From the IMG/VR virus record IMGVR_UViG_3300029787_000253, positions 461-27,625 of that record: DNA of 27,165 nucleotides; one strand, 5' to 3'. The stretch's first letter is position 1. The number at the start of each line of letters is the position of its first letter. The notes under the pieces were generated by a model, which saw nothing but the letters and a program-made list of their open reading frames with translations, did not search any database and was not told where the DNA came from. Both the position numbers and the translations under genes were made by a program. Source of the stretch: a virus. Below, piece by piece: positions 3,019 to 15,339 of the stretch.

Positions 3019-4503
3019 ATGTCTGTTGCTAGAACGTACACCGTAACGGTGCAGAGCACCGGTTATGGAAATAAATATTACATTGATGGCGTTCAACAAG
3101 CCACTATAGTTCTCGCAAAAGGAATTACTTATAAGTTTGATGTTTCTGACAGTAGTGTCGGAGGACACCCTTTTAAATTTTCTACAACCAGTGACGGAAC
3201 ACATGGCGGAGGAAGTGAATACACTACCGGTGTAACAACTTCTGGAACCGCTGGAGACGCTGGAGCGTACGTACAAATTTCTGTAGCTGACAGTGCTCCA
3301 AGCACATTATATTATTATTGTCAGTATCACTCAGGCATGGGCGGTTCTGCAACTATTACGACTTCCGACGCTTATGGGATGATACCATGGAATTATAATT
3401 CATGGGCTTCAAATACTTCTTCTGTTCCTCTAACAGGTTTACAAGCAACAACAGCCCTAGGAACACCAGATGCTTTTCCAAGTTTAGGTTGGGGTCGTTC
3501 TGCATGGGGCGATAATTCGTGGGGTGTAGATTATACTGCCGTACAATTAACAGCACCGTCGGCAGCAACAACAGCCGTAGGAACACCAGAAGCTTATCCA
3601 GGAACAGGTTGGGGTAGACTTCAATGGGGTAACTCTGGATGGGGCGTAGCTTACAGTGTTTTAATTGGAGTGACAGGAGATGCACCTGCTGGATTAACAG
3701 CTTCTGTGGGAGCAGTAATAGGTGAACAGTTTTTAGATGTTCCTTTAACAGCTCCTTCAAATCAAGGTGTATCTGCCATTGGTTCTATAACCACTCAACA
3801 AATAACACCAGTACCTTTAACAGCTCCAAGTCAAATGATTTCTGAGATTGGAGATTTTGATAATGCAGGAACTTTAGTAGGTTGGGGTAGAAATGGTTGG
3901 GGTGAAGAACCTTACGGAGATTCATTTAATAAATTAGTTCAGCCTTCAGGTCTTGCTGCAACTTCAAGTGTAGGAGCTATTATTCCTGACGGAATGATAA
4001 TTGGAATAACAGCACCATCGGCAGCAACTTCAGCTTTAGGTTCAGTTGGGTTAGAGTTTGGTGCAGACACTCAACCTATATCGGGTCTGTCAGTTACTTC
4101 AAGTGTAGGACAAGTTGTTGCTGGAATTGGTGTTGCATTAACAGGACTAGCTGCAACTTCAAGTGTAGGAGCAATAACTCCTGCAGATGTGGTTGGACTA
4201 ACTGGTTTACAAGCTACTTCAGCTCTCGGAACCGCACAGGCTAACAATACTGAAATTGTAACGCCGACAGGTCTTACTGCAACTTCAAGTGTAGGGTCTA
4301 TTGTTGTTGGGATAGGAGTTCCTTTAACTGCACCAAGCGCTGCAACGTCAAGTGTAGGTGCAATAGTGCCTGCAGATGTTGTAGGATTAACAGGGGTTGA
4401 AGCTACCTCAGAAATTGGTACAACAGGCTTTGGAACATTGGCATACAAAGATATTGACATAACCGGCAATACTTCGTATACAGATGTAAATCACGCTGCG
4501 TAG
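3019..4503 (+). CDS. Virion protein: cupredoxin-like head plus tandem repeats
   Basis: A 494-residue protein. Residues about 5-115 look like a cupredoxin fold with a candidate type-1 copper site: His50 ('GGHPFKFS'), then Cys101, His104 and Met107 in 'YYYCQYHSGMGG'. Plastocyanin-like proteins use the same His, Cys-x2-His and Met ligands, with a somewhat longer His-Met gap. Residues about 138-470 hold about 13 repeats of the type 'LTGLAATSSVGAI' or 'LTAPSAATSSVGAI', spaced roughly 20-40 residues, typical of marine phage fibres. Three Trp-rich stretches (157-169, 197-209, 288-300; pattern GWGRxxWG) lie between early repeats. A structural, exposed tail or fibre role is likely; whether copper binds and whether it serves stability or redox is unknown. 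Confidence 0.7.
   Translation: MSVARTYTVTVQSTGYGNKYYIDGVQQATIVLAKGITYKFDVSDSSVGGHPFKFSTTSDGTHGGGSEYTTGVTTSGTAGDAGAYVQISVADSAPSTLYYYCQYHSGMGGSATITTSDAYGMIPWNYNSWASNTSSVPLTGLQATTALGTPDAFPSLGWGRSAWGDNSWGVDYTAVQLTAPSAATTAVGTPEAYPGTGWGRLQWGNSGWGVAYSVLIGVTGDAPAGLTASVGAVIGEQFLDVPLTAPSNQGVSAIGSITTQQITPVPLTAPSQMISEIGDFDNAGTLVGWGRNGWGEEPYGDSFNKLVQPSGLAATSSVGAIIPDGMIIGITAPSAATSALGSVGLEFGADTQPISGLSVTSSVGQVVAGIGVALTGLAATSSVGAITPADVVGLTGLQATSALGTAQANNTEIVTPTGLTATSSVGSIVVGIGVPLTAPSAATSSVGAIVPADVVGLTGVEATSEIGTTGFGTLAYKDIDITGNTSYTDVNHAA
3430..4428 (+). repeat. Tandem coding repeats (GLxATSSVGxI type)
   Basis: About 13 diverged copies coding for a core of Leu-Thr-(Gly/Ala-Pro)-x-x-Ala-Thr-Ser-x-(Val/Leu/Ile)-Gly-x-Ile. 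The DNA also repeats, for example gcaacttcaagtgtagga recurs several times between about 3958 and 4300. Later copies are more alike than earlier ones, which suggests recent expansion at the 3' end. Confidence 0.75.
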
Positions 4504-4520
4504 GAGAAAAAATTATGGCA
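4502..4520 (+). repeat. 19-bp translation-start repeat, copy 2
   Basis: Identical over 19 bases to 2552-2570, covering the Shine-Dalgarno, spacer, ATG and GCA codon. It is the ribosome-binding site of the fibre gene at 4515. A shorter version (aaattatggcaata) starts the gene at 17164. Confidence 0.8.
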
Positions 4521-5819
4521 TCAACATACACACCTTTAGGGGTCGAATTAATGGCAACCGGCGAAAATGCTGGTACTTGGGGAACAAAAACTAATACAAA
4601 TTTATCGATAGTAGAACAAATATCTGGTGGATATAAAGTACAAACTTTAAATGCTGCAGGGACTGGAGCAAATACAACAGCTTTAGCCGTAGCAGATGGA
4701 TCTGCCGGTGCTACACTAGCAACTAGAATTATTGTTTTAGGTGCAGAGTCACCAGAAGCAATTACAGGAAATAAAATTGTTACAGTGCCTAATGATGTAG
4801 AAAATTTTTACATAATAAAAAACAGCACGAGTGGTGCTTACACAGTACAATTTAAAACAGCATCTGGATCAGGCGGAACAGTAACATGGGCTGCTACTGA
4901 TAAAGATTGGAAAATTATTTATGTAGATGGCGCTGGAAGTAATCCAAGCGTTGTTGATACAGGAATGGTATCAGCAGCTAGTGTTTCAACGCTAACTAAC
5001 AAAACTTTAACTTCACCAGCAATTGGAACTTCGATTTTAGATACTAACGGAAATGAACTTGCGCTTTTAACAGCTACTGGTTCTGCGGTTAATGAGTTTA
5101 CAATTGCAAACGCAGCTACGGGTGCGGGACCTACTCTTTCATCTACTGGTGGTGATACAAATATTGACATTAACGTAACTCCAAAAGGAACAGGAGACGT
5201 TGTTCTTGCAGGTGATACTGTAAAAGTTGGAGACTCAGGAGCAGCAGCAGTTTTAACTTCAAACGGAGCAGGAACTCTAACAGTAACTACTGGCGGAGCA
5301 ACTGACTTAGTTTTAAACACAAACAGCGGTACAAACTCTGGATCGTTTACAATCACAGATGCGGCTAACTCTGACATGACTGCAGCCCCTAATGGCTATG
5401 GAAGATTTACTGTTGATGGTCAAGGTAAGATCGAAAGTCTTGCAGAAAAAATTACAATAGAAGCTACGGCTGCTACAGGTACAAAAACATTTGATGTATT
5501 AACACAAGCTCTTTTATACTACACTTCAAATGCTTCAGGAGACTGGACTTTAAATATTAGAGGTGATGGTTCTACAGCTTTAAACACTATTATGGATACA
5601 GGTGAGTCAGTAACAATTGCTCACATGGTAACTATTGGTGGTTCTGAATATAGAAATAGTGCTGTTCAAGTTGATGGCAGTAGTATAACTCCTGAATGGC
5701 AGGGTGGTTCTGCACCTACAGAAGGGAATACTAACTCAATAGATGTATACACATACACTATTATTAAAACTGGGGATGCCTCATTTACAGCTCTAGCAGC
5801 GCAAACACAATTTGCATAG
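4515..5819 (+). CDS. Tail fibre-like virion protein
   Basis: A 434-residue protein. Its N-terminus ('YTPLGVELMATGENAGTWGT', then 'TNTNLSIVEQISGGY') is the anchor-type N-terminus I recall from many marine phage fibre genes. Residues about 95-150 have a beta pattern with 'ENFYIIKNSTSGAYTVQFKT'. Residues about 160-300 are rich in Thr, Gly, Asn and Ser, with fibre-like segments 'TLTNKTLTSPAIGTSI' and 'INVTPKGTGDVVLAG'. The C-terminal 100 residues ('YYTSNASGDWTLNIRGDG', 'VTIAHMVTIGG') look like a compact beta end domain. No chaperone or protease motif is seen. It is followed after 8 bases by the glycine-rich gene with its own Shine-Dalgarno. A fibre role is well supported; receptor specificity is unknown. 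Confidence 0.75.
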   Translation: MASTYTPLGVELMATGENAGTWGTKTNTNLSIVEQISGGYKVQTLNAAGTGANTTALAVADGSAGATLATRIIVLGAESPEAITGNKIVTVPNDVENFYIIKNSTSGAYTVQFKTASGSGGTVTWAATDKDWKIIYVDGAGSNPSVVDTGMVSAASVSTLTNKTLTSPAIGTSILDTNGNELALLTATGSAVNEFTIANAATGAGPTLSSTGGDTNIDINVTPKGTGDVVLAGDTVKVGDSGAAAVLTSNGAGTLTVTTGGATDLVLNTNSGTNSGSFTITDAANSDMTAAPNGYGRFTVDGQGKIESLAEKITIEATAATGTKTFDVLTQALLYYTSNASGDWTLNIRGDGSTALNTIMDTGESVTIAHMVTIGGSEYRNSAVQVDGSSITPEWQGGSAPTEGNTNSIDVYTYTIIKTGDASFTALAAQTQFA

Positions 5820-5827
5820 GAGGATAA

Positions 5828-6718
5828 ATGGTAATTAGATCAACAAGAGGCGGAGGTTCTTTCCCAAGTCTCATAGGTGGCGGACCTAAATTCATGGAAG
5901 CTTCTGGGGGTAGTGTTTCTACTTCTGGAGATTATAAAATACACACATTTAATTCTGGTGGTTCGTTTGTCGTTTCTAAATTAGGAACGGACGGAACATA
6001 CGGAAAAGCTGTTAATGCTGCTTTAGTAGGCGGCGGAGGCGGCGGCGGTGGCGAACACGGCGGCGGAGGCGGCGGTGGAGGCCAAATAGACATGGGTAAT
6101 GCTATGCTTACTGTTGCAAAAGATACTTACAATATTGGAATAGGCTCTGGTGGATCTGCTGGCGGCGGATCAGGACCAGGCGGAGGAGTCGGAGGCGACT
6201 CAACTATGGGTTCTTTGTTAACTGCTAAAGGCGGTGGCGGAGGAGCTGGATGGAGTCAAGGTTCCGATGATGGTGGATCTGGTGGTGGATCCGGCGGAGG
6301 AAACTCTTACAACGGTGGTAATGGTACTCAACCATCACAACCAGGAAACTCAGGAACTTACGGACATGGAAATTCTGGAGGATCAGGACAATATTCTCAC
6401 CACGGTTCAGGTGGTGGCGGAGCTGGTAACGGCGGACAACCAGGACCTTCAAGACCAGGTGGTATCGGAGGAAGCGGTGGAAATGGAAGAGCAGATCAAA
6501 TTACAGGAACAACGAGATCAGGCGGCGGTGGCGGCGGATCTTGGGGTGGAACATCTTCAGGCGGAAACGGCGGAGGTGGAAGTGGACCATCTAACCCACA
6601 TACAGGACAACCAGGAACTAATAACCTCGGCGGTGGCGGAGGTGGCGGTGGCCAAGGTAAAGGTCCCGGCTCTACTGGTGGAACTGGATTTGCTGTAGTA
6701 AAGGTTAAATTTCAATAA
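5828..6718 (+). CDS. Glycine-rich tail fibre / adhesin
   Basis: A 296-residue protein whose residues about 67-285 are dominated by glycine, including runs of eight at 68-75 and 78-85 interrupted by 'EH' and further runs near 232-237 and 268-275. Such sequences in phage adhesins can form packed polyglycine-II helices, as in the S16 gp38 tip. Short non-Gly segments with Ser, Asn, His, Gln and aromatic residues between runs would supply the binding loops. Six X-Pro-Gly triplets occur (Pro 117, 172, 205, 210, 262, 280). The N-terminus (about 25-66) and C-terminus ('TGFAVVKVKFQ') are beta-like caps. The strong Shine-Dalgarno 'taggagga' (5817-5824) fixes the start, and the stop overlaps the next ATG by one base. 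GGC and GGA codons make this locally GC-rich in an AT-rich genome. A distal receptor-binding role is inferred. Confidence 0.75.
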   Translation: MVIRSTRGGGSFPSLIGGGPKFMEASGGSVSTSGDYKIHTFNSGGSFVVSKLGTDGTYGKAVNAALVGGGGGGGGEHGGGGGGGGQIDMGNAMLTVAKDTYNIGIGSGGSAGGGSGPGGGVGGDSTMGSLLTAKGGGGGAGWSQGSDDGGSGGGSGGGNSYNGGNGTQPSQPGNSGTYGHGNSGGSGQYSHHGSGGGGAGNGGQPGPSRPGGIGGSGGNGRADQITGTTRSGGGGGGSWGGTSSGGNGGGGSGPSNPHTGQPGTNNLGGGGGGGGQGKGPGSTGGTGFAVVKVKFQ

Positions 6719-7149
6719 TGGCTGATAAAATATTTGCAATAATGGATGGTTCTAATATCGTTACAAACGTAATGGTAGTAGACGCTACTGATGAAGCAGA
6801 TGGAATTTCAAAAGTTAGAACTATAATAGCAAACCCAACTGCGGTAGTTGCTGAAACATTTGAAAATGCAACGGATGCATCTACAAGATATAATTACGCA
6901 AGAATAGGTGGAACATGGGATCCAAGCAATGTTGCTTATTACGACCCAAGACCTTATACTTCTTGGACTTTAAACAGCGATTATCGATGGATTGCACCCG
7001 TAACAACACCCAATACAAATTATGTTGGAGACGTCTATGTGGTTTCTGAATGGGATGAAGCAGGTCAAAAATGGAATGGTTTAAATACAACCACTAATGT
7101 AGTGGAATATGTATGGAACCCTGCTACATTAGCTTGGGATACAGTTTAA
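6718..7149 (+). CDS. Small conserved marine-phage protein, unknown function
   Basis: A 143-residue acidic protein. It opens with a compact domain ('KIFAIMDGSNIVTNVMVVDA') and has a Tyr/Trp-rich centre ('YYDPRPYTSWTLNSDYRWIA', about 78-97) and the end 'EYVWNPATLAWDTV'. I associate the DPRPY-SW-LN-DYRW pattern with small proteins next to fibre genes in cyanophages and other marine phages. No enzymatic motif is seen. The start codon overlaps the glycine-rich gene stop (TAATG), and it is the last gene of the fibre block before the oxygenase island. A fibre accessory, cap or assembly role is plausible but unproven. Confidence 0.6.
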   Translation: MADKIFAIMDGSNIVTNVMVVDATDEADGISKVRTIIANPTAVVAETFENATDASTRYNYARIGGTWDPSNVAYYDPRPYTSWTLNSDYRWIAPVTTPNTNYVGDVYVVSEWDEAGQKWNGLNTTTNVVEYVWNPATLAWDTV

Positions 7150-7174
7150 TATTGATATAAAAATAAAACATGAT

Positions 7175-7180
7175 AAAAGG
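7175..7180 (+). promoter_or_regulatory. Ribosome-binding site choosing the first oxygenase start
   Basis: The purine stretch aaaagg lies 8 bases before the ATG at 7189. It overlaps the upstream in-frame GTG at 7180, which therefore lacks a usable ribosome-binding site. This favours the ATG. No convincing promoter is visible in the 39 bases between the fibre block and this gene. Confidence 0.5.
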
Positions 7181-7188
7181 TGTTTAGA

Positions 7189-7674
7189 ATGCCTTTTATA
7201 GAAAGAAACTTTATAAAAAATTTTATAACTTGGAAAAAATTAGACAACATCATTAAAGATTGTGATGAGAAAGATTTTGAAGTGATATTAGAAAATAAAG
7301 AAAAAAGATTTGGTAAAAACAATTATAAAAATAAATCAATTATTATTAGCAATTGTTTAAAATATCTTGATTGTAGTTTAATTAAAAAATACGTAGATAA
7401 AAACAAGCTGTTTCAATACAGCAATTGGGATGCTCACATATACGCCTCTTTTAAAAAAGAGGCATGTTCTTTTGGTAAACATTTGGATTATGCACACAAT
7501 CTAATTGTACAACAGAAAGGAAAATCAAGATGGATTGTTGATAATTTTTGTGACACGGTTTTAGAACCAGGTGACATGTTATACATACCATTTAAATATA
7601 AACATGAATGTGTGCCTTTAAGTAAAAGACTATCTATTAGTTTTCCTTTTTGGCCGAAAGGATATTGTGGATAA
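7189..7674 (+). CDS. JmjC/cupin-like Fe(II)/2OG oxygenase
   Basis: A 161-residue protein counted from the ATG with a ribosome-binding site; an in-frame GTG at 7180 would add three residues. The C-terminal half has the layout of small JmjC or cupin-type hydroxylases: 'GKHLDYAHNLIVQ' supplies the HxD pair (His98, Asp100), 'LEPGDMLYIP' is the typical strand-turn before the second ligand, and 'YKHECVPLSKRLSISF' supplies the distal His (139) and a basic residue for 2-oxoglutarate. It is much shorter than bacterial ribosomal-protein hydroxylases of the YcfD type, so only the catalytic barrel is present. It opens the row of eleven oxygenase-like genes. The substrate is unknown; protein side-chain hydroxylation is the commonest activity of this fold. 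Confidence 0.65.
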   Translation: MPFIERNFIKNFITWKKLDNIIKDCDEKDFEVILENKEKRFGKNNYKNKSIIISNCLKYLDCSLIKKYVDKNKLFQYSNWDAHIYASFKKEACSFGKHLDYAHNLIVQQKGKSRWIVDNFCDTVLEPGDMLYIPFKYKHECVPLSKRLSISFPFWPKGYCG

Positions 7675-8191
7675 AATAATATTACAAGAACTATCTTTTA
7701 ATTATGGTTATTTAAAAAAAATAAATAATAAAAAATTAATTACCCATATACTTAAAGAAGGGGAACCCGCTTCACCTGAAGAAACAGACTCAGTTCACGA
7801 AGACATTGTTTTTCCTATGCATGATGAATTACAAAAAATATTTGTAGGCATCACAAAACAACTTAATCAAAGTTTTGTAGTAACCAGGTTTTGGTCACAA
7901 ATACATTTACCTAACCACAGCACAAATGTGCACGATCATTTAGTCAGAGAAAACATGACTCTAAGTCCTGATTACTCTGGCGTTTATTATTTACAGTGCG
8001 ATGAGAAATCAGGGTACTTCTGTTTTCAATACAAAAAAGATGGAGTTAATTATTCTAGATGGAAGATTAAACCAGAGGTAGGAAAGTTTATTTTGTTTCC
8101 TTCTCACTTAGAACATTTTGTAAGCAGGAACTATAGCCAAAAAAGAAGGATAGCATTGTCTTTTAATTTTAGTATTGAAAAAGTAAATTAA
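7667..8191 (+). CDS. Putative 2OG-Fe(II) oxygenase, HxH type (PF13759-like)
   Basis: A 174-residue protein starting at GTG, overlapping the upstream stop by 8 bases, with aaagga about 5 bases ahead. The C-terminal half follows the plan of the PF13759 putative 2OG-Fe(II) oxygenases: 'NVHDHLVREN' gives His89 and His91 where other oxygenases have HxD, 'DYSGVYYLQCDEKSGYFCF' is the core strand pair, and 'GKFILFPSHLEHFV' gives the distal His (150). 'KRRIALSFNF' gives the 2-oxoglutarate-binding Arg and the SFN ending. The N-terminal 80 residues are helical and variable. Three later genes in the island belong to the same class. The biochemical activity of this family is not established, so 'oxygenase' is by family only. 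Confidence 0.7.
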   Translation: MDKIILQELSFNYGYLKKINNKKLITHILKEGEPASPEETDSVHEDIVFPMHDELQKIFVGITKQLNQSFVVTRFWSQIHLPNHSTNVHDHLVRENMTLSPDYSGVYYLQCDEKSGYFCFQYKKDGVNYSRWKIKPEVGKFILFPSHLEHFVSRNYSQKRRIALSFNFSIEKVN

Positions 8192-8739
8192 TGGAAAACT
8201 TCATAGGTAGATATAATATAGAAGAAGACGTTTGCGATAAGGTAGTTAAATATTTTTATAAAAATAAAACGAGACATGTAAACGGTATCATAGGAAAAGG
8301 GGATGTAGCAAAAGATAAAAAGGATTCTATTGACATAGCAATAAATGGTGCGGACGGACTTACACCTTTGTTAAAAGAATATTTTGAAGAACTGTCTTTT
8401 TGTTTAAATAAATATAAAAAGAAATATATATATTCAGATGTTGATCAATCTAGATATAATTTAAATGGTTGTAATATTCAAAAATATAATCCCGGTGGTG
8501 GTTTTAAACAATGGCATTATGAAAACAATGGTGAACTAAATGAAAGGCATTTAGTTTTTATGACATATTTAAATACTTGTAAAGCAGCGGGAACTATGTT
8601 TTATTATCAAAACAAGACTTTTAAATGCAAGAAAGGAGATACATTAATTTGGCCAGCTGCTTGGACACACACTCACAAGGGTCAAATATCTACTACTGAA
8701 ACTAAGTACATAATAACAGGATGGTATTGCTATGGATAA
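8191..8739 (+). CDS. 2OG-Fe(II) oxygenase (prolyl-4-hydroxylase-like, HxE)
   Basis: A 182-residue protein. The C-terminal 90 residues are a prolyl-4-hydroxylase-like barrel: 'NIQKYNPGGGFKQWHYENNG' carries His109 and Glu111, 'HLVFMTYLNTCKAAGTMFYY' is the core strand pair, 'KGDTLIWPAAWTHTHKG' gives the distal His (160 or 162), and 'TKYIITGWYC' gives a Lys for 2-oxoglutarate. The acid ligand is Glu rather than the usual Asp, which some active members of the superfamily tolerate. Among the HxD-class genes here only this one has it. Similar proteins with the THTHKG-type ending occur in cyanophages. The start is the ATG sharing one base with the previous stop. The substrate is unknown. Confidence 0.75.
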   Translation: MENFIGRYNIEEDVCDKVVKYFYKNKTRHVNGIIGKGDVAKDKKDSIDIAINGADGLTPLLKEYFEELSFCLNKYKKKYIYSDVDQSRYNLNGCNIQKYNPGGGFKQWHYENNGELNERHLVFMTYLNTCKAAGTMFYYQNKTFKCKKGDTLIWPAAWTHTHKGQISTTETKYIITGWYCYG

Positions 8740-9310
8740 AAAAACTCATGAACAGATAACTATGTTTCAAACAGATTTGTATGCTACAGATCTAAAAGGT
8801 ATTGATAACAAAAAAATAATTAAATACTTAAATAAAATACCGAAAGAGGAACACGATGTAGTTGCTTCAAATTATGGGGGCTGGCATAGTCCTTATTACT
8901 TTGACCCATTTCCTAGTTGTGTTGATGACTTAAACGAAAAAATAAATAACTTTGTTAAACGAACTTTAAGAAAAGATTTTAATATTGTTGGTGAAACACT
9001 GATACATAACAGTTGGTTTATTATAAATAAAAAGGGTGACTTTAACAAACCACACAAACATCCACCCTATGTTTTTTCAGGAGTGTATTATGTTAAGTGT
9101 GATGATGATTCTGGCAATTTAGTTTTTAATACACAGGCCGAAATGAATAATTATGCTACACACTATAGAGAATATAATAGCTATAATTCAAAGGATTTTT
9201 TTATTACACCTAAAACTGGACAGCTTTTAATTTGGCCGGCTTGGGTTGATCACTACGTAACACCAAGTAAATCTAATTCAGAGAGGATAGTATACAGTTT
9301 TAACATATGA
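8732..9310 (+). CDS. Putative 2OG-Fe(II) oxygenase, HxH type (PF13759-like)
   Basis: A 192-residue protein and the best match in the window to the PF13759 plan. 'HNSWFIINKKGDFNKPHKHP' carries His108 and His110, followed by 'VFSGVYYVKCDDDSGNLVF'. 'TGQLLIWPAWVDHYVTPS' gives the distal His (174) and 'SERIVYSFNI' the 2-oxoglutarate Arg (185) and the family ending. The ATG lies inside the end of the previous gene (8-base overlap) with agga about 9 bases upstream. It is clearly related to the gene at 11029, sharing the order SW-I-KKGD-H-x-H-(S/T)G-YY/YL, so the pair probably arose by an old duplication or parallel acquisition. The target is unknown. Confidence 0.75.
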   Translation: MDKKTHEQITMFQTDLYATDLKGIDNKKIIKYLNKIPKEEHDVVASNYGGWHSPYYFDPFPSCVDDLNEKINNFVKRTLRKDFNIVGETLIHNSWFIINKKGDFNKPHKHPPYVFSGVYYVKCDDDSGNLVFNTQAEMNNYATHYREYNSYNSKDFFITPKTGQLLIWPAWVDHYVTPSKSNSERIVYSFNI

Positions 9311-9894
9311 TAAATAATTTTGAGTATTGGCTTTTTGAATCTGTAATAGATTCATCAACATGTGAAAGAATAATTAAACTTTTTAAAAAACCTAAATTAG
9401 GTAAAATAGGTAAAGATGATAGATTAGATAAAAAGAAAAGACAATCAGATGTTTGCTTTAATAACACACCGTGGTTGTATGAAATAATAACTCCTTTTAT
9501 AAACGCAGCTAATGAACAAGCTAGTTGGAATGCTGATATAGTGTGGAACGAACATGTTCAACTTACTAAATATACAAAAAATCAACACTACGATTGGCAT
9601 ATAGATGCCCTAGAAGAGCCATATGGTACAAACACTTTTAAAGAATACACAGGTAAGATTAGAAAGCTATCTCTAGTCATGAACTTAACGGACCACAAAA
9701 AGTATGAAGGCGGTGATTTTTACTTTGCCTTTCATGGGCCCGACAAAGACAGAAGACCAACCAAAGTCCCAGAGTCTAAAAAACAAGGAAGCATTTTAGT
9801 CTTTCCTAGTTTTGTATGGCACAAAGTATCACCTGTAACAAAAGGCACGAGATACTCTTTGGTTAACTGGTCGTTAGGACCTCCTTGGAAATGA
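9307..9894 (+). CDS. PKHD-type 2OG-Fe(II) oxygenase
   Basis: A 195-residue protein that looks like a prolyl-4-hydroxylase-like enzyme of the PKHD (PiuC/YbiX) type across its whole length. 'LTKYTKNQHYDWHIDA' gives His98 and Asp100, 'RKLSLVMNLTDHKKYEGGDF' the core, and 'GSILVFPSFVWHKVSPVTKG' the distal His (172), followed directly by 'TRYSLVNWSLGPPWK' with the 2-oxoglutarate Arg (182). All expected catalytic residues are present and the length is near that of the stand-alone domain. Start and previous stop overlap as ATGA. It is a close relative of the island gene at 12016: both share 'GGD', 'HxVxPVTxGTR' and the ending GP-(P/K)-W-(K/R). It is likely an active hydroxylase; the substrate is unknown. 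Confidence 0.82.
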   Translation: MINNFEYWLFESVIDSSTCERIIKLFKKPKLGKIGKDDRLDKKKRQSDVCFNNTPWLYEIITPFINAANEQASWNADIVWNEHVQLTKYTKNQHYDWHIDALEEPYGTNTFKEYTGKIRKLSLVMNLTDHKKYEGGDFYFAFHGPDKDRRPTKVPESKKQGSILVFPSFVWHKVSPVTKGTRYSLVNWSLGPPWK

Positions 9895-10439
9895 TAAAAG
9901 TACATAAAAATTTTTTGTCAAAAGAAGAACTTGAAAATGTGAGGGAGTATTTTGAGTTTTGTTTTTTTAAAAAAACGGATACAAGACCTAGACCATGTCC
10001 TATGATTGAAGGGGCTCGTGTTATATATGGTGATCCTGTTGCCGATTATTTTTTATGTTCAAAAAAACACATAGTAGAAAAAGCATTTAATAAAGAACTT
10101 CTTCCAACCTATAGTTACACACGTATGTACTATAATGGTCAAGCTCTTCCAAAACATACAGATAGACCAGCATGTGAAATATCTCTAACGTTAAATATAT
10201 GGCAAGATCTAGAGTGGCCTATTTTTATGGATGGCAAACCTTATAGTGCAAAGTCGGGTGACTGTATATTCTATGAAGGACCTAAGTACGAACATTGGAG
10301 AGAACCTTACAAAGGAGAAACATGTTGTCAGGTATTTATGCATTACGTTGATGCTCATGGTCCAAATACTAATGTTGCATACGATGACACAAATCATTTA
10401 AAATATCCCAAAGAAATATATAAACAATGGTTCAAGTAA
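9891..10439 (+). CDS. 2OG-Fe(II) oxygenase (prolyl-4-hydroxylase-like)
   Basis: A 182-residue protein counted from the ATG that overlaps the previous TGA stop. An in-frame TTG at 9885 is closer to a possible 'agga' and would add two residues, so the start is not certain. 'YTRMYYNGQALPKHTDRPAC' carries His89 and Asp91, 'EISLTLNIWQDLEWPIFMDG' is the core, and 'AKSGDCIFYEGPKYEHWREP' gives the distal His (135). Unlike the PKHD gene before it, the residues after the distal His ('YKGETCCQVFMHYVDAHGPN') carry no obvious Arg at the usual 2-oxoglutarate position, unless Arg137 serves. I recall similar HTDRPACE-type proteins from cyanophage genomes. The substrate is unknown. Confidence 0.75.
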   Translation: MIKVHKNFLSKEELENVREYFEFCFFKKTDTRPRPCPMIEGARVIYGDPVADYFLCSKKHIVEKAFNKELLPTYSYTRMYYNGQALPKHTDRPACEISLTLNIWQDLEWPIFMDGKPYSAKSGDCIFYEGPKYEHWREPYKGETCCQVFMHYVDAHGPNTNVAYDDTNHLKYPKEIYKQWFK

Positions 10440-11032
10440 AAGAAGGCTATATCTCTAAAGCAGATTTAAAAATTATTAAACAACAAGTTGTTAATAATAA
10501 TAATTTTCCTTGGTACTATTATCCAGAACCTGTGTACGGCTTTCAAAAAAATTATCCGTGTCTAAGTCATATTTTATTGCCTCGTTACGACTATGAGAAT
10601 AATACAGGTTTTAAAGTAAACTCAGATCTGTATCCTTTTTTTACAGGTATAATAGAAAAAATTTGTAAGAAGCATAAAATAAAAATTAAAAGAATATTGA
10701 GAGGCGCTCTTAATTTAACAACTTATTTTAAGAAAGAATATTCTAATCCACATTTTGACCACACGTTTCCCCATATCGATATAATAATATATTGTAATAA
10801 ATTTAGTAAAGGCTCTACTTTTTTGTTTCAAGAAACATCTAAAACAAATCCTGCTGTAAGTAACAAAGATAGATATGAGCCCTATGTGGCAAAGACAATA
10901 ATTAAAGAAATGAAAGCTGACGAGGGTAAGTACAACATATTTCCTGGTGAAAACTATCATGCTGCTGGTTCTCCTGGAGAAGACGACGAGGTAAGAATAA
11001 TTTGTATATACACAATAGAGGAGGAGAAATGA
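10427..11032 (+). CDS. Putative 2OG-Fe(II) oxygenase (HxD)
   Basis: A 201-residue protein starting at an ATG 13 bases inside the previous gene. The C-terminal half shows the oxygenase pattern. 'YSNPHFDHTFPHIDIIIYCN' gives His109 and Asp111, 'SKGSTFLFQET' a GG-D-like turn, and 'DEGKYNIFPGENYHAAGSPG' the distal His (178); 'DEVRIICIYTIEEE' supplies an Arg (190) for 2-oxoglutarate. The N-terminal 95 residues are aromatic-rich ('FPWYYYPEPVYGFQKNYPCL') and probably shape the substrate pocket. It ends at a strong Shine-Dalgarno for the next gene. The full triad suggests an active enzyme; the target is unknown. Confidence 0.72.
   Translation: MVQVKEGYISKADLKIIKQQVVNNNNFPWYYYPEPVYGFQKNYPCLSHILLPRYDYENNTGFKVNSDLYPFFTGIIEKICKKHKIKIKRILRGALNLTTYFKKEYSNPHFDHTFPHIDIIIYCNKFSKGSTFLFQETSKTNPAVSNKDRYEPYVAKTIIKEMKADEGKYNIFPGENYHAAGSPGEDDEVRIICIYTIEEEK
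11017..11024 (+). promoter_or_regulatory. Strong Shine-Dalgarno setting the start of the HHH oxygenase
   Basis: agaggagg lies about 4-5 bases before ATG 11029, inside the 3' end of the previous gene. It shows that translation begins at 11029 and not at the in-frame TTG at 11002. It is by far the best ribosome-binding site in the oxygenase island and may mark re-initiation midway along a long message. Confidence 0.8.
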
Positions 11033-11565
11033 TACAAACTTTATTTTCAATAGACGCTTTTACTACGAAAGTAAAAGACTGGAAAAAGAAAAAAACCAAG
11101 ATTAAAAAATATGTAAAAGATTTTAAATACTACAGAAGACCGAATACTTCTTTTTCTACAACAAGATTTGGTACATCTTCTTTAGGATTAACAGATAAGT
11201 TGTACGAAATTTTTGCAGACGAACTTCATTTATTTGGAACAGAATGTAATTTTAAAAAATTATACATAACTGACTCATGGGTAATAAACTATAAAAAAGG
11301 TGATTACCAAGTTGCACACCATCATGGCAAGTCAATGTATACAGGTATTTTATATCTTAATTTAGATAAGAAACAAGAAACAGCAACTTACATAGCGCCT
11401 TGGTCTGATGAAATGAGTAAGCAAACTAAACTTACACAAATAGAATGTGAAGAAGGTACACTAGTAATTTTTCCAGGACACCTCTTGCATTATGTTAATC
11501 CAAACCTGTTAGACAAAGACCGAGTGGTTATTTCTTTTGATTTAGATTGCGATGAACAGGATTAG
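11029..11565 (+). CDS. Putative 2OG-Fe(II) oxygenase, HHH motif (PF13759-like)
   Basis: A 178-residue protein from the ATG set by the strong Shine-Dalgarno at 11017-11024. It is of the PF13759 type: 'DSWVINYKKGDYQVAHHHGK' carries three successive histidines (97-99), of which His97 and His99 fill the HxH positions. 'SMYTGILYLNLD' is the core strand, 'EGTLVIFPGHLLHYVNPN' gives the distal His (154), and 'DKDRVVISFDL' the 2-oxoglutarate Arg (165). The N-terminal 30 residues are very Lys-rich ('KDWKKKKTKIKKYVKDFKYY'). The 2-oxoglutarate end reads SFD rather than SFN. It overlaps the next gene by 14 bases. Confidence 0.74.
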   Translation: MIQTLFSIDAFTTKVKDWKKKKTKIKKYVKDFKYYRRPNTSFSTTRFGTSSLGLTDKLYEIFADELHLFGTECNFKKLYITDSWVINYKKGDYQVAHHHGKSMYTGILYLNLDKKQETATYIAPWSDEMSKQTKLTQIECEEGTLVIFPGHLLHYVNPNLLDKDRVVISFDLDCDEQD

Positions 11566-12019
11566 TATAATAGATAATTTTATTACTGAAAAAGAATGCA
11601 AGCAATTAATTAAGTTGCATAAAAAACATAAGAAAAATATGTGGCAACATGAGGATACATTTTGTGTTAGCTTAGATATCCTTAAAGAACCTGTTGTGTT
11701 AACACTAAGAAAGAAAATGAATGTGCTATCAAAAGAAATAAATAATTCTAAAGTAAACTATTCTAATTTAGTTAAATGGCCTGAAGGTGCAAGACACAGA
11801 ATGCATACAGACTATGCCGTAAGAGAAACAACACTGGCTTCTATTGTATATCTTAATCACGACTATCAAGGTGGACAAACACATTTTGAAGATGAGACTT
11901 CTATACAACCAGTGACAGGTAGAATACTTTTATTTAATGGTAATGAACGTTATCATGGTGTTAAACAAATTACAGAGGGAACAAGGTACACTGTAGCATC
12001 TTGGTATACAAAAATATGA
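11552..12019 (+). CDS. Short 2OG-Fe(II) oxygenase (prolyl-4-hydroxylase-like)
   Basis: A 155-residue protein, the shortest of the island and close to a bare prolyl-4-hydroxylase-like domain. 'WPEGARHRMHTDYAVRETTL' gives His85 and Asp87, 'ASIVYLNHDYQGGQTHFEDE' is the typical strand followed by the GG turn, and 'VTGRILLFNGNERYHGVKQI' gives the distal His (135). 'EGTRYTVASWYTKI' gives the 2-oxoglutarate Arg (145). Every diagnostic residue is present, so this is among the safest calls in the row. The ATG lies 14 bases inside the upstream gene. The substrate is unknown; members of this family hydroxylate proline or other side chains in proteins. Confidence 0.82.
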   Translation: MNRISIIDNFITEKECKQLIKLHKKHKKNMWQHEDTFCVSLDILKEPVVLTLRKKMNVLSKEINNSKVNYSNLVKWPEGARHRMHTDYAVRETTLASIVYLNHDYQGGQTHFEDETSIQPVTGRILLFNGNERYHGVKQITEGTRYTVASWYTKI

Positions 12020-12588
12020 GTGCTCTTAGGTATTGGATTTGGCCGCCACAGTTTGACAATAAAGAAATTAAAACATTAAATAAATTTATTGATCACAATT
12101 ATTTAGAATTAGAACCAAAAGAAGGGGCTGCTAGTGGTTCTTCAGGTAAGAGATTAAAACAAGAAAGACACACAAAATTAATAGAATGGCAAAAAATAGA
12201 ACCCTACTTTAAAAAAGTATATGGGTATGCAGAAGAAATTATTACACACGAGTTTGGTTATATAACTTTTAAAATGTTTGATGATAGACTTATAAATTTT
12301 GCAACATATACCTCAAAAGAAAAAGACTATTACGGTTGGCATGTAGACAGAAGTCCTGAAGGTAAAAACTTTGATGTCAAAGGCACATTGCTTATCAACA
12401 TGTCTGATACTCCTTACAAAGGCGGAGATCTAAGACTCTTTAATCAAGGACCAGAGACAGTTACGGATTTTAAAAAACCAGGGTCTATGATATTATTTGA
12501 TGGTTTTATGAGTCATGAAGTTACACCCGTTACTCAGGGAACAAGGAAAACAATAGCTATTTTTATGACAGGTCCAAAATGGAGATAA
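12016..12588 (+). CDS. PKHD-type 2OG-Fe(II) oxygenase
   Basis: A 190-residue protein counted from the ATG that overlaps the previous TGA; an in-frame TTG at 12001 would add five residues but has no ribosome-binding site. 'TSKEKDYYGWHVDRSPEG' gives His109 and Asp111, 'GTLLINMSDTPYKGGDLRLF' is the core, and 'PGSMILFDGFMSHEVTPVTQ' gives the distal His (167). 'GTRKTIAIFMTGPKWR' carries the 2-oxoglutarate Arg (177). It is the closest relative in the island of the gene at 9307 (same GGD turn, HEVTPVTQGTR block and GPxW(K/R) end) but differs strongly before residue 90. The target is unknown. Confidence 0.82.
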   Translation: MSALRYWIWPPQFDNKEIKTLNKFIDHNYLELEPKEGAASGSSGKRLKQERHTKLIEWQKIEPYFKKVYGYAEEIITHEFGYITFKMFDDRLINFATYTSKEKDYYGWHVDRSPEGKNFDVKGTLLINMSDTPYKGGDLRLFNQGPETVTDFKKPGSMILFDGFMSHEVTPVTQGTRKTIAIFMTGPKWR

Positions 12589-13091
12589 AGAATATAACAA
12601 CAGACTTTATAATATCCACAGTTAAGGACCATAAAAAGCATAAAAAAATACTTTTAGATTTAATAGATGAGATGCCTTTTAGTCAGTCACAACAAAATAG
12701 TAAGTCTGATTGGCTGCTGCCTGTAGAACAAGAAAGAAAATACCTAGATTATTTTTATAAAAAAGTAATAGATGAGTCTATGGATAGAATGCAAGATTAT
12801 TTTAAAGCAGACCAATGGCATATAGCTAACGCTTGGTTTCAACAATATCATGATGGAGCCCACCATATATTTCACAACCATGAAAAAACCAATTGGGCTA
12901 ATGTATATTTTTTAGAAATGCCGTCTACCACATACAGAACGCAGGTAAAAGTAAGAGGTAAACTCTTTAAGTATCAAGCTAAAGAAGGACAAGTGATAAC
13001 TTTCCCAGCGCATTTACTGCATAGCGCTCCCAGTATAGACAAAAAAAGAAAGACCGTAATAGCTTTTAATTCTAATTTTAGCCACTACTAG
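12579..13091 (+). CDS. Putative 2OG-Fe(II) oxygenase, HxH type
   Basis: A 170-residue protein, last of the row, with its ATG 10 bases inside the previous gene. 'YHDGAHHIFHNHEKTNWANV' gives His99 and His101, 'YFLEMPSTTYRTQVKV' the core, and 'KEGQVITFPAHLLHSAPSID' the distal His (148), followed by 'KKRKTVIAFNSNF', where Arg157 probably binds 2-oxoglutarate. The SGVYY signature of its relatives is replaced by 'WANVYFLEM', making it the most divergent HxH member. The N-terminal half ('NSKSDWLLPVEQERKYLDYF') shows no match I recognise. A 70-base gap with a possible promoter follows. Confidence 0.68.
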   Translation: MEIKNITTDFIISTVKDHKKHKKILLDLIDEMPFSQSQQNSKSDWLLPVEQERKYLDYFYKKVIDESMDRMQDYFKADQWHIANAWFQQYHDGAHHIFHNHEKTNWANVYFLEMPSTTYRTQVKVRGKLFKYQAKEGQVITFPAHLLHSAPSIDKKRKTVIAFNSNFSHY

Positions 13092-13161: not shown

Positions 13162-15339
13162 ATGCTACAAAAACTAGGTTTTGCTCCAGGATTTAACAAA
13201 CAAGTTACCGAAACAGGCGCCGAAGGGCAATGGTTTGACGGTGATAACGTTCGTTTTAGGTATGGGACCCCTGAAAAAATAGGTGGTTGGAGCCAATTAG
13301 GGGATAGTGTGTTGACTGGAGCTGCAAGAGCTGTCCATCATTGGGAAAATAATGACAGTGTTAAATACGCTGCTATAGGAACTAATAGAATTTTATACGT
13401 ATATTCCGGTGGGACTTACTACGATATTCACCCTATCAGAACTACTTTAACTGGAGCTAATTTTTCATCTACTGGTGGTTCAGCAGCAGTAACTATTACC
13501 TGTTCTGGAGTACACGGATTAATAGAAGATGACATTGTTTTATTTGACAGTGTAACAGGTTTATCGGGATCTACTTTTACTAACGCTACATTTGAAGATA
13601 ATAAATTTATGGTCACGTCTGTGCCCTCAGCCACTACTTTTACAATAACTATGGCTACAGTAGAAGCCGGAACTCCGTTAAGCACTGACGGATCGGCATC
13701 TGTTCTTTGTTATTATAACGTTGGTCCTTCTCAACAATTAGGTGGCTTTGGATGGGGAACTGCTAACTGGGGCGGTGAAGCTAGTGCACCGGTAACAACT
13801 ACGTTAGCTTCTGCATTAACAAATACTGTTGATACTACAATTGTATTAACAGACTCTAGTCAATTTCCATCATCAGGAGAAATTAGAATTGGATCTGAGG
13901 ATATTAGTTTTACAGCTAACAACACGGGAACCAATACTTTAAGCGGAGGAGCAAGAGCCGTAAACGGAACTTCACCATCCACACACAGCTCTAGCGCAAC
14001 GGTTACAAATATAAGTGACTTTGTTGCATGGGGGGAGGCGTCTACAGCCGACTTTACAATCTCACCTGGGTTATGGGTTTTAGATAACTTCGGTCAAAAA
14101 TTAATTGCACTTATTTATAATGGTGCTTGTTTTGAATGGGACGGAGCTCCATCAAACGCAACAGCAACAAGAGCTACAATTATTCCAAACGCCCCAACTA
14201 AATCTCGTCACGTAATTGTTTCTACACCAGACAGACACTTAGTGTTTTTTGGAACTGAAACAAAAGTAGGAGACACAACTACACAAGACGATATGTTTAT
14301 TAGATTTTCTGATCAAGAAAGTATTGATCAAACAGATTCATATACAGTTACTGCTAACAATACAGCAGGCACACAAAGATTAGCCGATGGATCAAGAATT
14401 ATGGGAGCTATTAAAGGTAGAGATGCTATTTATGTTTGGACCGATACAGCTTTATTTCTTATGCAATTTGTCGGTGCACCATTTACATTTTCTTTCCAAC
14501 AGGTAGGAACTAACTGCGGACTACTGGGCAAGAATGCCTGTATAGAGGTAGACGGTGCTGCGTATTGGATGTCAGAGAATGGTTTTTTTACTTATGATGG
14601 TCAGTTAAAATCAATGCCTTGTTTAGTAGAAGATTTTGTTTACGATAGTATTAACACTACAGCCAGAGATTTAGTTAACGCTGGTTTAAATAACCTATTC
14701 GGAGAAATAACTTGGTTCTATTGTAACAGCGGGTCTAACGTTGTTAATAGACAGGTAACTTATAACTATCTAGACTCTACTACTCAAAGACCTATATGGA
14801 CAACGGGTAGTTTAGCTAGAACTGCGTGGCAAGACTCAGCGGTATTTGGTCTACCGCATGCAACTTATTACACAGCTAGTGACAACAACTCTTTTGATGT
14901 TACTGGTAATACGGACGGAACTACTATATACTATGAGCAGGAAACAGGGACCGATCAAGTCAACGCTGGAGGAGCTGTTACAGCTGTAATAGCCAACATA
15001 TCTTCTGGTGATTTTGACATTACACAAAGAAGAAGTAACACAGGCCAAACTGTTGGTATGCCTGACTTAAGAGGAGATGGAGAATTTATAATGAGAATTA
15101 GCAGGTTTATACCAGACTTTATAGATCAAACTGGAAACACATCCATTAAATTTAAAACTAGAATTTATCCAAACAGTTCACAAGTTACAAATACTTTTAC
15201 TTGCACATCTTCTACAACTAAAAAAGATGTGAGGATTAGAGCTAGACAAATTGCATTAGAAGTTGCAAACACAGCTAGCGGAGAAGATTGGAAACTTGGT
15301 ACATTTAGATTAGATATACACCCAGGAGGAAGAAGGTAA
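13162..15339 (+). CDS. Tail nozzle-like virion protein with inserted beta-module
   Basis: A 725-residue protein. The ATG lies about five bases after agga (13153-13156). The N-terminus ('TGAEGQWFDGDNVRFRYGTP' then 'EKIGGWSQLG') is the sort found in P22 gp10 or T7 gp12-like tail-tip proteins with a beta-propeller, and repeated strands such as 'KYAAIGTNRILYVYSGG', 'DRHLVFFGTETKVG', 'AIYVWTDTALFLMQFV' and 'AAYWMSENGFFTYDGQ' fit propeller blades. Residues about 194-205 hold a Trp-rich 'GFGWGTANWGG' like the fibre protein at 3019, and about 212-282 the third copy of the shared module. The C-terminus ('RQIALEVANTASGEDWKLGT' then 'FRLDIHPGGRR') resembles the end of many phage tail proteins. It is separated from the other neck genes by the fibre block and the oxygenase island. 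Confidence 0.7.
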   Translation: MLQKLGFAPGFNKQVTETGAEGQWFDGDNVRFRYGTPEKIGGWSQLGDSVLTGAARAVHHWENNDSVKYAAIGTNRILYVYSGGTYYDIHPIRTTLTGANFSSTGGSAAVTITCSGVHGLIEDDIVLFDSVTGLSGSTFTNATFEDNKFMVTSVPSATTFTITMATVEAGTPLSTDGSASVLCYYNVGPSQQLGGFGWGTANWGGEASAPVTTTLASALTNTVDTTIVLTDSSQFPSSGEIRIGSEDISFTANNTGTNTLSGGARAVNGTSPSTHSSSATVTNISDFVAWGEASTADFTISPGLWVLDNFGQKLIALIYNGACFEWDGAPSNATATRATIIPNAPTKSRHVIVSTPDRHLVFFGTETKVGDTTTQDDMFIRFSDQESIDQTDSYTVTANNTAGTQRLADGSRIMGAIKGRDAIYVWTDTALFLMQFVGAPFTFSFQQVGTNCGLLGKNACIEVDGAAYWMSENGFFTYDGQLKSMPCLVEDFVYDSINTTARDLVNAGLNNLFGEITWFYCNSGSNVVNRQVTYNYLDSTTQRPIWTTGSLARTAWQDSAVFGLPHATYYTASDNNSFDVTGNTDGTTIYYEQETGTDQVNAGGAVTAVIANISSGDFDITQRRSNTGQTVGMPDLRGDGEFIMRISRFIPDFIDQTGNTSIKFKTRIYPNSSQVTNTFTCTSSTTKKDVRIRARQIALEVANTASGEDWKLGTFRLDIHPGGRR
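13795..14007 (+). repeat. Shared beta-module, copy C
   Basis: Residues about 212-282 of the nozzle-like protein: 'TTTLASALTNTVDTTIVLTD', 'FPSSGEIRIGSEDISFTA', then 'LSGGARAVNGTSPSTHSSSA'. The strand order and spacing match copies A and B, but YTGIS and LTGCTRG have diverged to FTANN and LSGGARA. Confidence 0.55.

Follow-up and report, generated by a model that had tools for sequence, protein, structure and literature searches.

A row of eleven oxygenase genes that travels with a glycine-rich tail protein gene in a pelagiphage-like contig

The oxygenase row and its surroundings

The window analysed here comprises 27,165 bases of the 27,625-base IMG/VR record IMGVR_UViG_3300029787_000253, a metagenomic contig. 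The order of its tail, stabilization and helicase genes is common to HTVC023P and HTVC027P, and its stabilization protein shares 41–47% identity with those of both phages; judging from these two features, the contig is HTVC023P-type pelagiphage-like. Eleven consecutive open reading frames (ORFs) on the + strand, P1 to P11, fill positions 7189–13091 with no gene of another kind in between, and neighbouring ORFs share 1–14 overlapping bases. A preliminary description of this DNA had proposed an uninterrupted row of eleven oxygenase-type genes with overlaps of up to 14 bases, and both the layout and the identity of the genes (by Pfam, PHROG or predicted fold) were confirmed. The row and its neighbours are as follows.

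4515..5819, + strand: tail protein upstream of the module (phrog_31104/5906; 70–93% identity in L166–L168)
5828..6718, + strand: glycine-rich tail protein, 40% Gly, proposed substrate/adhesin (Gly_rich_2 PF21722, phrog_2295)
6718..7149, + strand: c9 protein, small, conserved (phrog_7759; same family as S-SM1_050)
7189..7674, + strand: P1 oxygenase, JmjC_2/cupin type (Pfam 4e-13; HxD98...H139)
7667..8191, + strand: P2 oxygenase (PF13759, 4e-10; HDH89...H150)
8191..8739, + strand: P3 oxygenase (PF13640, 4e-9; HYE109...H160)
8732..9310, + strand: P4 oxygenase (PF13759/TIGR02466, 1e-23; HKH108...H174)
9307..9894, + strand: P5 oxygenase (PF13640/phrog_61, 7e-15; HID98...H172)
9891..10439, + strand: P6 oxygenase (phrog_2954, "ferrochelatase" by name, 1e-47; HTD89...H135)
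10427..11032, + strand: P7 oxygenase (phrog_274, "DNA endonuclease V" by name, 3e-24; HFD109...H178)
11029..11565, + strand: P8 oxygenase, ATG start at 11029 (PF13759, 6e-16; HHH98...H155, numbered on the 179-residue translation starting at 11026)
11552..12019, + strand: P9 oxygenase (PF13640/phrog_2297, 3e-12; HTD85...H135)
12016..12588, + strand: P10 oxygenase (PF13640, 8e-12; HVD109...H167)
12579..13091, + strand: P11 oxygenase (PF13759, 3e-7; HNH99...H148)
13162..15339, + strand: stabilization-like tail protein (c0), which forms the conserved border on the downstream side and does not co-travel with the island

P1 may start at a GTG (7180) or an ATG (7189). Nine of the eleven proteins, all but P6 and P7, pass the curated Pfam cut-off, and they fall into JmjC_2 (P1, 49 bits), PF13759 (P2, P4, P8 and P11) and PF13640 (P3, P5, P9 and P10). 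The candidate iron triad that had been proposed for each gene was found in all eleven, with a distal His preceded by HxD (P1, P5, P6, P7, P9 and P10), HxE (P3) or HxH (P2, P4, P8 and P11), and the triads are retained in orthologues of two other phages. In most members an Arg or Lys follows the distal His; in P6 positions +9 to +12 lack such a residue, and only R137 and Q147 lie nearby. By profile or predicted fold, combined with the triad, all eleven are members of the Fe(II)/2-oxoglutarate (2OG) oxygenase superfamily. The HxH that replaces HxD/E in P2 (7667–8191), P4 (8732–9310), P8 (11029–11565) and P11 (12579–13091) aligns with that of the solved PF13759 relatives 3BVC and 2RG4, and these four proteins could possibly form a three-histidine iron site of the same kind.

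Two His and one Gly, and nothing else, are invariant across the eleven proteins. Recent tandem duplication was rejected, the members being only 14–22% identical to the first in the alignment. When the window was compared with the related contig L168, the ratio of nonsynonymous to synonymous substitution rates (dN/dS) was 0.05–0.18 for each gene and the triads were intact, so all eleven are under strong purifying selection and appear to be in use. With values this low throughout the row and an unchanged gene order in independent contigs, chance can be ruled out. A chimeric assembly is unlikely, as the block sits on different backbones in several contigs from different samples. The G+C content of the island (7000–13000) is 29–33%, and elsewhere in the window it is mostly 33–43%, reaching 50%.

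P6, P7 and the names of their families

P6 matches no Pfam family at E values up to 10, and hence not PF00762 (ferrochelatase). NCBIfam gave no match for P6 or for gp67 of HTVC023P, an annotated "ferrochelatase" that matches the P6 family at 236 bits. A phmmer search of P6 against the PDB yielded no credible match, and its assignment as an oxygenase therefore draws on fold. The AlphaFold models of P6 (predicted local distance difference test score, pLDDT, 91; 38 aligned sequences) and P7 (pLDDT 87; 21 aligned sequences) are both double-stranded beta-helices. Their best matches in the PDB are 2OG oxygenases, prolyl hydroxylases among them, and include Pseudomonas putida prolyl 4-hydroxylase (P4H), PHD2 and AlkB homologues. 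The possibility raised in the preliminary description, that structure prediction might show most members to lack this fold with aligned ligands, was thus not borne out for the two that are hardest to classify.

For P6, the P. putida P4H (4j25) and PHD2 were matched with Foldseek E values of 3e-8 and 4e-8, and VIA-align gave Z scores of about 16 against prolyl hydroxylases; the folds are alike but sequence identity is 9–20%. H89, D91 and H135 are kept across the 38 sequences of the P6 family, together with an EHWR motif. A ferrochelatase was rejected, P6 (182 aa) being confidently modelled as a beta-rich single domain and not a two-domain alpha/beta chelatase of ~300 aa. No ferrochelatase chain is among the fold matches listed for P6, which alone would not exclude one. 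On the predicted fold and the motif, the phage "ferrochelatase" family phrog_2954 is best described as a prolyl-hydroxylase-like 2OG oxygenase. Members of this family were seen at 9891–10439 of the window, at L081 12289–12909 and at L324 15793–16909. A further annotated ferrochelatase of 362 aa, in ACG-2014f (L165 7965–9053), has a C-terminal part that matches Fe2+-dependent dioxygenase models and looks like a two-domain 2OG oxygenase. A bacterial origin of P6 was rejected: a search of 84,980 species returned 13 loci only, mostly in marine metagenome-assembled or single-amplified genomes, and these are likely phage contigs.

The renaming bears on published views of these genes. Phage "ferrochelatase" has been treated as an auxiliary metabolic gene and reported to be enriched among seasonal viruses (PMC11561400). 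It has also been taken for a link to iron and heme and for an auxiliary metabolic partner of 2OG oxygenases (PMC9599517); our assignment would make it one more oxygenase. More generally, modulation of 2OG and nitrogen has been suggested as the role of 2OG oxygenases in phages (Sullivan 2010, PMC3037559), and the set studied here could accordingly be supposed to adjust the host's metabolism of 2OG, nitrogen or iron, a view also taken for pelagiphages (Wittmers 2022, PMC9599517) and one that fits the expected need of all eleven enzymes for 2OG, O2 and iron. We regard it as quite improbable for this row, as draining 2OG does not call for eleven divergent and individually conserved enzymes, the "ferrochelatase" partner is itself an oxygenase, and the content of the row tracks the tail and not the backbone (see below). 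Host metabolic reprogramming was likewise the reading given for the 24 2OG-Fe(II) genes of S-SCSM1 (PMC9602691). As in the window, these are diverse and some stand in short rows among tail genes, but the longest run in the stretches examined is four genes.

The name DNA endonuclease V was rejected for P7 and P9. Neither has an endonuclease V Pfam match; P9 belongs to PF13640 and P7 has a 2OG fold. PHROG families 274 and 2297 (window 10427–11032 and 11552–12019), which carry the name DNA endonuclease (V), also match 2OG oxygenases, and these names look wrong. Modification or repair of nucleic acids by TET- or AlkB-like enzymes would be in keeping with such names on several members, and P7 is about as similar to AlkB-family folds as to P4H. 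Given that these very families match 2OG oxygenases here, that the row sits in the late structural region and that the sole Tet_JBP match is weak (P9, E 0.13), we consider such a function highly improbable.

The oxygenase set in related phages

Contigs fetched with the stabilization gene have their oxygenases at one fixed site, with a c9-family or tail gene upstream and the stabilization gene downstream. The number of oxygenases per island ranges from 1 to 9 in many combinations in these contigs, and from 1 to 12 across related phages, with the longest rows in L168 (12), the window and L319 (11 each) and L167, L321 and L323 (10 each). The content of this site is hypervariable, and the row of the window lies at the long extreme of its range. 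The preliminary description had called eleven in a row exceptional, and the row is real, although not unique. It had also allowed for relatives with these genes scattered, and in the related phages they are adjacent. Across all loci, genes overlap at 84% of 659 oxygenase–oxygenase junctions (median overlap 4 bases), which is what translational coupling would predict. In HTVC027P (L082 14295–15956), three oxygenases occupy the same site on the opposite strand.

Other enzymes accompany some of these islands. Most of 26 flavin halogenase matches lie within or beside oxygenases (in L001, PF04820 at 2e-91), and carbamoyltransferase genes occur in or beside a few islands. Flavin halogenases in oxygenase islands were located at L001 3862–5397, L048 3974–6830 and L327 11220–12776, and L048 also has a carbamoyltransferase. 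The same three enzyme classes make up a jumbo cyanophage cluster, for which a metabolite or capsule pathway was proposed (Iyer et al. 2021, PMC7824862), and their co-occurrence raises the possibility that the enzymes of the island decorate a surface polysaccharide or make a small metabolite that is oxidised, halogenated and carbamoylated. We think this unlikely, though still worth weighing as an alternative. The window island consists of oxygenases only, has no scaffold-building enzyme and, like most islands, lacks both halogenase and carbamoyltransferase, and the enzyme set follows the tail protein.

This last point is seen where closely related oxygenase sets stand on divergent backbones. 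L168 has P1–P11 in the same order at 72–91% identity, with an extra oxygenase between P9 and P10, and its glycine-rich protein and c9 protein are 89% and 62% identical to those of the window, whereas its backbone shares 27–48% identity, save for one partial gene at 69%. L167 has ten of the eleven (P2–P11) at 90–100% identity and a stabilization protein at only 59%, and L319, L321 and L323 repeat the pattern of the same set on a divergent backbone. L001 is the converse, with a stabilization protein at 93% identity and a different glycine-rich tail protein and oxygenases. The glycine-rich protein (5828–6718) reaches 89–99% identity only in contigs with the same oxygenase set, and it tracks that set better than the phage backbone does. 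The oxygenase set has been inherited and transferred as a block with the glycine-rich tail protein between divergent backbones, which supports the common purpose that the preliminary description had attributed to the row.

A wider comparison covered 102 loci, gathered with tail and oxygenase queries and to that extent biased in sampling. Here loci with similar upstream tail proteins tended to have similar oxygenase sets (partial rho 0.19, permutation p 0.003), and similarity of the abutting downstream gene showed no such correlation (partial rho -0.03, p 0.69). Dissimilar oxygenase sets were found in 8 of 56 pairs with similar tail proteins versus 703 of 828 pairs with similar downstream genes. 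With the glycine-rich protein as the sole query, oxygenases lay at most 5 kb downstream in 27 of 34 loci and upstream in 3 of 27. A Gly-rich gene was among the three genes upstream of 18 of 21 and 19 of 22 islands (two of three samples, about 86%), against 12% per gene, and upstream of 16 of 35 islands in the sample gathered with P6. A recombination hot spot beside the tail genes might collect unrelated oxygenases, each with its own role, so that linkage alone would explain co-travel; the strongly variable content at a fixed site and the known hypervariable regions close to tail genes of marine phages are in its favour. Yet the cargo is almost wholly of one enzyme superfamily, its order is preserved across divergent phages and the abutting downstream gene does not co-travel, and we judge this explanation improbable.

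The arrangement extends to cultured phages. S-SM1 and S-RSM4 (Kyanoviridae) each have a Gly-rich relative, a small gene and then nine detected oxygenases; in S-SM1 the first two are S-SM1_049 (Gly_rich_2/phrog_2295) and S-SM1_050 (phrog_7759). In the cyanomyoviruses S-SM1, S-RSM4, S-CAM8 and Sf-CH11 the array adjoins a tail protein, as in the window, but these are contractile T4-like cyanobacterial phages. Gly_rich_2 was confirmed in S-SM1 and Sf-CH11, a carbamoyltransferase is present in S-CAM8, and a tryptophan 7-halogenase lies within the oxygenase row of Sf-CH11; the arrays had been annotated piecemeal as endonuclease, ferrochelatase or hypothetical. In the cultured pelagiphage HTVC033P, a Gly_rich_2 tail protein gene precedes two genes annotated as oxygenases and one as a "putative ferrochelatase". 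The Gly-rich and oxygenase layout thus recurs in two phage morphotypes. The 2OG-Fe(II) genes of HTVC023P-type pelagiphages, which share phage type and site with the window, were described as eight non-orthologous genes, close "although not adjacent", and the ferrochelatase was given a function of its own (Wittmers 2022, PMC9599517). We found no link between oxygenase arrays and tail proteins in the open literature; most subscription journals were outside this coverage.

A possible role in tail-tip maturation

We propose that the enzymes oxidatively modify a cognate tail-tip adhesin, a reading to which we assign a probability of about one half. The module would consist of the glycine-rich adhesin-like protein (5828–6718), its small partner (6718–7149) and the cognate oxygenase row (7189–13091), which is probably translationally coupled. 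The c9 protein, which abuts the island on its upstream side in most relatives, is a possible adhesin chaperone or partner. The oxygenases would act late in infection in the host cytoplasm, ahead of assembly, and would oxidise the tail-tip protein or its partner at several residues, by hydroxylation or otherwise, with each oxygenase handling particular sites. The halogenases and carbamoyltransferases of sister islands could then perform further tailoring of the same target, and a swap of the module would be a swap of a chemically matured host-binding surface. The preliminary description had suggested a modification pathway or combinatorial modification, which is possible, but missed the linked glycine-rich tail protein, the strongest clue.

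Several points weigh against this proposal. The anatomy of the locus is shown; the chemistry of the array, its substrate and any modified residue are inferred. In the least query-biased set, 22 loci that were found with the stabilization gene and include the window, the partial correlation was 0.13 (p 0.062); with five module relatives added it was 0.22 (p 0.006). The tail protein is not strongly Gly-rich before some islands (L066, L076, and 19 of 35 in the P6-query sample), and in ACG-2014e, a counterexample, no oxygenases accompany a short Gly-rich relative. Oxygenase number is not convincingly correlated with any amino acid of the tail protein, and the weak, mixed correlations obtained were not used. 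Proximity, finally, lets genes co-travel without functional coupling.

Coupling of the enzyme set to the tail protein would likewise be expected if the enzymes kept other phages out by altering the host's receptor or surface, and hence followed the tail specificity of their carrier. Pelagimyophages have glycosyltransferases in their host recognition cluster, and these have been suggested to change the host surface (PMC7029224). The window island has no glycan-building genes, however, the peptidyl hydroxylases among the nearest fold matches of P6 hint at protein substrates, and a slow receptor change late in infection would presumably bring a lytic phage little gain; we therefore hold receptor alteration to be rather unlikely.

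Modification of the tail tip would have wider consequences. Few unexplained genes are as common in marine phages as those for 2OG-Fe(II) oxygenases, which tend to be classed as aids to metabolism; the coupling described here supplies a concrete and testable target for these enzymes, the tail tip. More tentatively, and with somewhat less confidence than in the modification itself, we suggest combinatorial post-translational maturation of phage receptor-binding proteins. Mobile enzyme sets, each cognate to an adhesin and containing as many as twelve oxygenases and sometimes halogenases and carbamoyltransferases as well, would write non-genetic amino-acid chemistry on the tail tip. If this is true, marine phages diversify host binding through swaps of enzyme sets as well as through sequence.

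A promoter scan of the window gave no more matches than shuffled sequences, and terminator-like matches numbered 5 against 3.6 expected; both were uninformative. Upstream of the module, positions 3019–4503 encode a tail protein whose N-terminal part is cupredoxin-like, by eye only (HPFKF...YYYCQYHSGMGG).

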